Positions 16,618 through 18,767 of a stretch of 51,309 nt of DNA are shown here, in pieces. The notes under the pieces are model-generated. The model searched no databases, was not told the DNA's origin, and saw only the letters and a list, made by a program, of their open reading frames with translations. Made by a program: the position numbers and the translations under genes. The stretch spans positions 1 through 51,309 of the forward strand of contig CAJQKT010000064.1 in the NCBI GenBank assembly GCA_905478995.1, read 5' to 3'. Origin of the DNA: an uncultured Pseudomonadales bacterium (GTDB lineage Bacteria; Pseudomonadota; Gammaproteobacteria; Pseudomonadales; UBA7434). How positions within the stretch are numbered: position 1 is the stretch's first letter; each line of letters opens with the position of its first letter.

Positions 16618-17298
16618 CTAACGCGAACGAGACGACTGGCTCGAACTAACAAAAACCTCAACCCGCCTATTCAACGCCCTACCTGCTTCGGTTGCATTCG
16701 ACTCGCGTGGCTCATACTCACCTCGCCCCTCGACACTCAAGCGGTAATCAGCCACGCCCTCGCCTACTAAATATTCCTTCACTGCACGCGCGCGGCGCTC
16801 CGACAGTGCCTGATTATATGACTCAGAACCCGTTGAATCAGTGTGGCCGATGATGCGAGCCGTAGAGTCGTATTTCTCTAGCACCCCAGCCACTTTATTT
16901 AAGCTGCGAGTAAACGATGGCTTCACACTCGCCTCATTAAAACCGAAGGTCACTTCATTATCGAACGTCAACTTGAGCAGGTCGTCTTTGACGCGCTGAA
17001 TTTCAATATCCGAATTGCGTTGCTCGGCCTCAAGAGCCGCACGAAAAGCTTCCTCCTGCTTGTCCATATGGTTGCCAATGCCGGCACCAGCAGCAGCACC
17101 TATCACGGCACCGGCAATCACACCGCGATCGCGATTACCGTCATCATCGAGCTGACCACCAATAACCGCTCCAGCAACCGCGCCCATCACGGCGCCAAGA
17201 GCAGTGTTATTACGATCGGCCTGGCCATTAGTGCCGGTAGATTGTGTGGCGCAGCCAGTCATGGCGGCGCAGATTAACAAAGGATAAATTTTTTTCAT
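16618..17298 (-). CDS. OmpA-family lipoprotein with glycine-zipper domain
   Basis: Outer-membrane lipoprotein likely anchored to peptidoglycan, similar in layout to E. coli YiaD. Start ATG 17298 has GGAGA 7 nt upstream and gives 226 residues. Lipobox TGC places the modified Cys at 16. A glycine zipper follows (AVMGAVAGAVIGG, then GAVIGAAAGAGIGNHMD), then a short charged helix. An OmpA C-terminal domain follows from about residue 110, with HTDSTGS and LSERRARAVKEYL, which bind diaminopimelate. The tail is Ser/Arg-rich. Monocistronic. Function beyond envelope integrity unknown. Confidence 0.88.
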   Translation of the reverse strand: MKKIYPLLICAAMTGCATQSTGTNGQADRNNTALGAVMGAVAGAVIGGQLDDDGNRDRGVIAGAVIGAAAGAGIGNHMDKQEEAFRAALEAEQRNSDIEIQRVKDDLLKLTFDNEVTFGFNEASVKPSFTRSLNKVAGVLEKYDSTARIIGHTDSTGSESYNQALSERRARAVKEYLVGEGVADYRLSVEGRGEYEPRESNATEAGRALNRRVEVFVSSSQSSRSR

Positions 17299-17505: not shown

Positions 17506-17533
17506 TTGCAAAATCACTGTATGGATATACACT
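17506..17533 (+). promoter_or_regulatory. Predicted promoter of the SOS-box gene
   Basis: TTGCAA (17506-17511) and TACACT (17528-17533) with a 16-bp spacer make a plausible sigma-70 promoter. The -10 overlaps the LexA box at 17532-17547 and a degenerate second box, as expected for a repressed SOS promoter. Confidence 0.45.
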
Positions 17534-17547
17534 GTATTTAAATACAG
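17532..17547. promoter_or_regulatory. LexA (SOS) box
   Basis: CTGTATTTAAATACAG is a perfect palindrome matching the gammaproteobacterial LexA consensus CTGT-N8-ACAG with an AT-rich centre. It is extended to ACTG...CAGTA on the flanks. A degenerate second box, CTGTATGGATATACAC, abuts it at 17517-17532. It is 86 bp upstream of the ATG at 17633. Confidence 0.8.
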
Positions 17548-17632
17548 TAATTGAGCGCAGCCTGTAAACTTATTTTTGCATGCTTGCGTATCATCGATTA
17601 ATACGGCCCACCATTACCCGCGAGATAAGCTC

Positions 17633-18154
17633 ATGTACTCAACCGCTCAAGCCACCTTCGTAAGCGCAACGCGCACAAACACGCGTAGTCCAATGACCGC
17701 TCAGCCTTTAACTGTTAATTACAAGCAAGTGGATTACGCCGCCTTTAGGCACGCCATTGACCACCCAAGCAACAAGCGCCACAGTAGCACCCAACAGCAC
17801 GTATTACAGCAACAAAAAGAAATTTTAATAGCCGCTAGTGATAACAGCGTGCTAGCAAAGATGAGTCAGCCTCACGTTGATCGTCACGGCGAGGTACATG
17901 AAGTGCGCTACTTTTTGCCAGTAACCGCTTGCAAACTGCCAGCATATGCCCAATTGTCGCTTAAATTAACTCAACTGCTACGTAGCTCGCGCGCGCTAAT
18001 GCGAAAATGTGTTGCCCTGCGTCAGTCCGCTGCATGGCCTACATGGGCTAGTAATCCCCATACCGCTATTCGTCAACTCGCCAGCAACGGCAATACTCGC
18101 CAACACCTGACCCAAGATGAGCCATGCTGGACTACGATTCGCCTTACCGCGTAA
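17633..18154 (+). CDS. Hypothetical protein, probable SOS-regulated gene
   Basis: No family recognised. ATG 17633 is chosen because GAGATAAG stands just upstream. An in-frame TTG at 17576 would add 19 residues. The 173-residue product is basic, with no signal peptide or membrane segment. It opens with a Ser/Thr-rich 30-residue stretch. A central part is Gln/His-rich (STQQHVLQQQKEILIAASD), and a helix-like region with alternating Leu/Arg follows (YAQLSLKLTQLLRSSRALMRK). It is rich in His and Gln overall. A LexA box overlaps its probable promoter, so induction by DNA damage is expected. It does not look like SulA, ImuA, DinI or a polymerase subunit. It stands alone, so a role in the SOS response is inferred from regulation only. 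Confidence 0.6.
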   Translation: MYSTAQATFVSATRTNTRSPMTAQPLTVNYKQVDYAAFRHAIDHPSNKRHSSTQQHVLQQQKEILIAASDNSVLAKMSQPHVDRHGEVHEVRYFLPVTACKLPAYAQLSLKLTQLLRSSRALMRKCVALRQSAAWPTWASNPHTAIRQLASNGNTRQHLTQDEPCWTTIRLTA

Positions 18155-18527: not shown

Positions 18528-18767
18528 ATGAGTTCCGAGCTGTTATCAAACGCTGTATCCAACACCACACGTGAGCCACTTAGTCAGATATTGCAACGCT
18601 GCTTTCACAAGCGCAAAAGCGGGTGGTTTGTGCAGCACAGCGAAAAAAATTCAGCTGGCCCGTTTGCAGACAAAGCAGACGCCCAGATGGCTATGCTCTA
18701 TTACAGCGCAAGAACACTGTGGCCCAGTGAGAAACAGTTACGCGAGTTCGCTCGCAACGGAAAATAA
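18528..18767 (+). CDS. Small conserved-looking protein, unknown function
   Basis: A 79-residue protein starting at ATG 18528, which has GAGG 5 nt upstream. A longer frame begins at 18480. After about 20 polar residues it shows a compact motif: SGWFVQHSEKNSAGPFADKADAQ, read in two parts as GWFVQ and AGPFADKADAQ, followed by a helix with LYYSARTLWPS. An aromatic strand, then GPF and an Ala-rich helix, is reminiscent of small DUF6316-like proteins of pseudomonads and relatives. This is a recollection, not a verified match. No signal peptide. It stands alone between the SOS-box gene and yrfG. Confidence 0.6.
   Translation: MSSELLSNAVSNTTREPLSQILQRCFHKRKSGWFVQHSEKNSAGPFADKADAQMAMLYYSARTLWPSEKQLREFARNGK

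Follow-up and report, generated by a model that had tools for sequence, protein, structure and literature searches.

The locus and its LexA operators

Which protein does this uncultured Pseudomonadales bacterium keep behind a near-perfect LexA box, and what would it do after DNA damage? SOS regulons vary between lineages, and their non-homologous small effectors are often missed by annotation. In the window (the whole stretch of 51,309 nucleotides analysed here), the original prediction had claimed a LexA-consensus palindrome at 17532-17547, a second, degenerate box at 17517-17532 overlapping it by one base, a TTGCAA-N16-TACACT promoter overlapping the box, and behind them an open reading frame (ORF) for 173 residues at 17633-18154. 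It had taken the product for an undescribed SOS protein that matches no known SOS family, possibly a division or repair inhibitor, and had named three checks that the sequence allows, namely a search for homologs by profile methods, the conservation of the LexA box upstream of these homologs, and support for the reading frame.

The sequence bears out every element of this layout, including the start, stop and length of the ORF. The downstream box, CTGTATTTAAATACAG (box 2, 17532-17547, plus strand), is a perfect palindrome agreeing with the consensus at 8/8 positions, has the flanks ACA.../...TAATT (that is, CACTG...CAGTA) and is the sole exact CTGTN8ACAG match in the window. The upstream box, CTGTATGGATATACAC (box 1, 17517-17532, plus strand), is degenerate and agrees at 7/8 positions; base 17532 is common to both, being the last of box 1 and the first of box 2. 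Both boxes are overlapped by the promoter-like element TTGCAA (17506-17511)-N16-TACACT (17506..17533, plus strand), which was read from the sequence and is not called by a generic sigma-70 scan, and the distance from the tandem boxes to the ATG at 17633 is 85 bp. Matches to CTGTN8ACAG with one mismatch occur 14 times in the window versus 14.1 times expected from shuffles. Such degenerate matches are therefore meaningless on their own, and the weight has to be placed on the perfect box and on its conservation.

Throughout the bacterium's own genome (2.55 Mb), the exact pattern CTGTN8ACAG occurs 24 times versus 9 times for a reversed control pattern. Exact boxes with all-A/T cores are found only before recA (CTGTTTAAATATACAG; the identity of RecA was confirmed), before imuA-imuB (CTGTATATTTATACAG) and before the window gene, and the other exact sites inspected are mostly intragenic with G+C-containing cores. 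One exact box, CTGTATTAGCCAACAG (L029:986-1001, contig C88), lies upstream of a moaB-like gene at a distance of about 160 bp; its core is less A/T-rich, and it is probably a chance site. LexA itself is encoded in the genome (matches to PF01726 and PF00717), has a DNA-binding domain of the gammaproteobacterial kind and carries the NAAEEHLKALARKG helix; its gene (L024, C26:6000-13000) is preceded by two degenerate tandem boxes, 127 and 110 bp upstream and 17 bp apart.

A conserved gene family

The gene (17633..18154, plus strand) has a close relative in another uncultured Pseudomonadales genome (L002), whose protein is 87% identical to the window protein without any indels. Of the 62 nucleotide differences between the two genes, 40 are at third codon positions, and dS is 0.395 and dN 0.068 (ratio 0.17), by which measure the ORF is a real gene under purifying selection, and the reading frame is thus supported. 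Profile searches, which were protein-based and used no DNA, covered 390 genomes of the order. A profile built from six homologs of the genus found matches in 33 of these genomes, and a profile of the core found the family in 34, with 23 of the latter outside the window genus and at least six GTDB families of the one order represented. Homologs by profile methods thus exist.

The homologs within the genus are distant (about 22-28% identity) and occupy the same genomic slot, in the order divergent glycine-zipper/OmpA lipoprotein gene, tandem boxes, family gene, DUF6316-like gene and HAD phosphatase gene. In the window, the lipoprotein gene lies at 16618-17298 on the minus strand and shares the intergenic region with the SOS gene, and the small DUF6316-like gene lies downstream at 18531..18767 (start possibly 18480) on the plus strand. 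The window copy of the latter is below Pfam detection, while its relatives in L041 and L066 match PF19837 (DUF6316). In two GTDB families HMM matches link the DUF6316-like gene to the family gene, at the loci of the window genus (f1) and at those of f13, and its presence next to the family in f13 too is an independent sign of common descent.

The members share a core of about 65 residues with the motif F-x-x-V-x-Y-x-x-F-R ... T-x-I-Y-D ... A-I-x-x-A-A-x-I-D-x-x-G-x-x-x-P-x-x-Y-F-x-R, in which F, G and Y are invariant and A and D nearly invariant. Members outside the genus are mostly short (67-123 amino acids), and N- and C-terminal extensions are present in genus members. A short member and the window protein have the same strand-helix-four-strand (beta-alpha-beta4) core in their AlphaFold2 models, although the alignments behind the two models have sequences in common. 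In the window protein the core comprises residues about 30-98 (17720..17926, plus strand), modelled with pLDDT mostly about 90, and is followed by a predicted long helix (residues 104-133; 17942..18031, plus strand; AlphaFold2 model and alignment), part of the C-terminal extension that is seen in the window genus only. No catalytic motif is recognisable in the conserved domain, and GRAVY is negative in all members, which are hydrophilic overall.

Two sets of weaker matches lie beside the family. Genome G001 holds a second match (C112:15119-15250, an open frame of 84 residues, E 7e-9), which is possibly a paralog. Outside the order, small proteins in L068 (1465-1782) and L069 (1342-1680) have the core's first half (YxQFRQL...GAEIIITDN) in common with the family; matching the first half of the profile only and having no LexA box, they were not counted as members, and they are possibly distant relatives outside SOS control.

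Conservation of the operators in relatives

At ten loci of the same genus both boxes are kept in the 15-bp register with one base of overlap, and box 2 agrees with the consensus at 8/8 or 7/8 positions. TCTTGCAAAA and TATACACTG are invariant in all ten, and the arrangement TCTTGCAAAA-N2-ACTGTAT-N3-TATACACTG is essentially invariant within variable surroundings. Outside the genus, an exact CTGTN8ACAG precedes the matched region at a distance of at most 300 bp in 17 of the 19 members examined versus 0.07 expected from shuffles, a count which, like that of the C-terminal tails below, is drawn from related genomes, so that p-values overstate independence. These 17 members cover five GTDB families (f9, f11, f13, f45 and f47), and each of the remaining two members has two boxes that agree at 7/8 positions. 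In most members outside the genus the boxes are tandem or triple, spaced about 15-49 bp apart. Moreover, LexA was found in 21 of the 22 family-bearing genomes searched, and boxes of the same type precede lexA in most of those whose lexA locus was read. The LexA box is therefore kept upstream of homologs within and beyond the genus, which supports the assignment of the family gene to the LexA regulon; the operators are recognised by sequence and conservation, and repression by LexA would follow from them.

Search for known relatives

Neither the window protein nor its family has any meaningful match in Pfam, NCBIfam, PHROGs or PADLOC; Pro-MCH, DUF5928, CENP_C_N, TPP1, phrog_29267 and GajA were below the cut-off or weak. 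The lack of a match to known SOS families, as it had been claimed, thus holds in these four libraries. By sequence, PDB yielded just hyaluronidase/hyaluronate lyase and an antifungal protein at E 0.5 or worse, and a fold search of PDB gave no match with E below 0.001 and no fold that names a target. The best match in BFVD is a protein from Bacillus phage AR9 whose function is unknown (E 0.005), and the family has no match in phages and plasmids. No prior description of the family was found in the literature searched, in which most subscription papers were absent.

Among the genes that LexA regulates in P. aeruginosa are some whose function is unknown, PA0922 for example (PMC8944484; PMC1250226). 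These hypothetical proteins, as well as DdrR of Acinetobacter, are small uncharacterised damage-response proteins of the same order, and they are likened to the family by description. No PA0922-like divergent family member was seen at the Pseudomonas-like dinB loci examined, and the family has no match in the genomes of group f20, whose dinB and sulA mark them as Pseudomonas-like. Considering that no library model covers the protein, that its LexA boxes are conserved and that its ORF is under selection, the earlier view of an undescribed SOS protein is supported from sequence. Conserved LexA operators here point to an entire family for which Pfam, NCBIfam and PHROGs have no model, and which is very probably a family of small soluble LexA-controlled effectors with transient action, undescribed in the libraries queried.

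The C-terminal tail and a proposed mechanism

C-terminal Ala and Ala-Ala tails are typical ClpX signals. The window protein ends in WTTIRLTA (18128..18151, plus strand), a conserved, degron-like tail with terminal Ala. A C-terminal Ala is found in 26 of 30 members versus 21 of 193 background ORFs, and Ala-Ala in 14 of 30 versus 4 of 193; the tails in the genus end in LTA, unlike the classical LAA.

We propose that in the undamaged cell LexA would occupy the two operators, which overlap by one base and lie across the promoter, and would keep the gene silent. RecA-driven cleavage of LexA would then switch the gene on. Since no catalytic motif is recognisable, the beta-alpha-beta4 domain would most likely act by binding a partner. 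By analogy with known degrons, the Ala-ending C-terminus suggests rapid removal of the protein by a ClpXP-type protease once the damage is repaired, for which RecN of E. coli is a precedent among SOS proteins (PMC10714372).

Division checkpoint or another role

What such a presumably short-lived protein would do can be approached from the distribution of SulA. The SulA profile (PF03846) has matches in 162 of the 390 genomes of the order; many of these are ImuA, as judged from long frames and from the loci L099, L135 and L136, and dozens are SulA-length, for example in the lexA-sulA arrangement of L100. In the 34 family-bearing genomes no stand-alone SulA was detected, and the PF03846 matches there are ImuA only. 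Three genomes, G019, G041 and G079, had apparent SulA matches (L099, L136 and L135) that appear to be ImuA, judged by their sequence, length and position; the family is present in G019 and G041. Likewise, the SulA profile has no match in the window protein, in its relatives (Pfam) or in its own genome, and no sulA-like ORF was recognised after lexA in this genome or in the family-bearing genomes inspected. SulA absence follows phylogeny, so that the zero overlap across GTDB families, for which we estimate from the SulA-profile table about eight families on each side out of 47, is not significant.

Like SulA of E. coli and Pseudomonas, the family protein is small, soluble, under a LexA box and presumed short-lived, and it could take the place that is vacant in genomes without SulA. 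It differs from SulA in that SulA has a known recognition by Lon whereas the family has the Ala-ending tail, and in that the family gene is not adjacent to lexA (in this genome the gene is on C64 and lexA on C26). The division inhibitors YneA, SidA and SosA are likewise lineage-specific, small and SOS-induced. However, inhibitors of the YneA type are small membrane proteins (PMC6051672), unlike the hydrophilic family members. We assume that the likeliest role, at about 35%, is that of a checkpoint which transiently holds back division or replication in SulA-less lineages. The earlier idea of a division or repair inhibitor fits, as a hypothesis, the absence of SulA and the degron-like tail. The more specific proposal of a new checkpoint family which replaces SulA, is silenced by tandem LexA operators and is cleared by ClpXP via its Ala tail is a tentative one, and the family is a candidate for how SulA-less bacteria pause after DNA damage.

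Ranked second, the protein might instead modulate RecA, LexA cleavage or a repair/translesion complex in the manner of DinI, RecX or RecN, a possible though doubtful role. The small size and solubility of the protein, its SOS control and its degron-like tail would suit this role, and the strongest sibling boxes in the own genome are those of recA and imuA-imuB. RecN of E. coli, too, has several SOS boxes, three in number, together with recognition by ClpXP at its C-terminus (PMC10714372); it is, however, a large SMC-like ATPase, whereas the family has a small core without ATPase motifs. Against such a modulator, neither DinI nor YebG was matched in Pfam by the eight members scanned, the family is confined to the 34 of 390 genomes, and at the loci read its gene is not linked to recA, lexA or imu.

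The third-ranked reading, in which damaged cells would make a protein that binds DNA or belongs to the nucleoid, is improbable. Within the genus the members have a strongly basic character (pI about 9-11; charges from +4 to +21), and in both models UBP (9eff), an archaeal nucleoid protein bound to DNA, ranks first or second among the structural alignments. However, this alignment (Z 4.3-4.4, 2.2-2.6 A over 51-58 residues) is tied with unrelated chains and falls in the range of noise (Z below 5), and the members of f47, the largest group, range from acidic to weakly basic (pI 5.8-9.5), so that strong basicity is not a property of the family. Finally, that the boxes arose by chance, as the chance level of degenerate matches in the window might suggest, or act solely on the divergent lipoprotein gene across the shared intergenic region, the ORF being no SOS gene, is hardly credible, because other GTDB families keep the box before the family gene despite a different neighbour and the ORF is under purifying selection.

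As a separate observation on LexA boxes in the order, the Pseudomonas-like genomes L127 and L128 carry umuD-umuC-like pairs behind the exact boxes CTGTACATACGTACAG and CTGTATGAATGTACAG.
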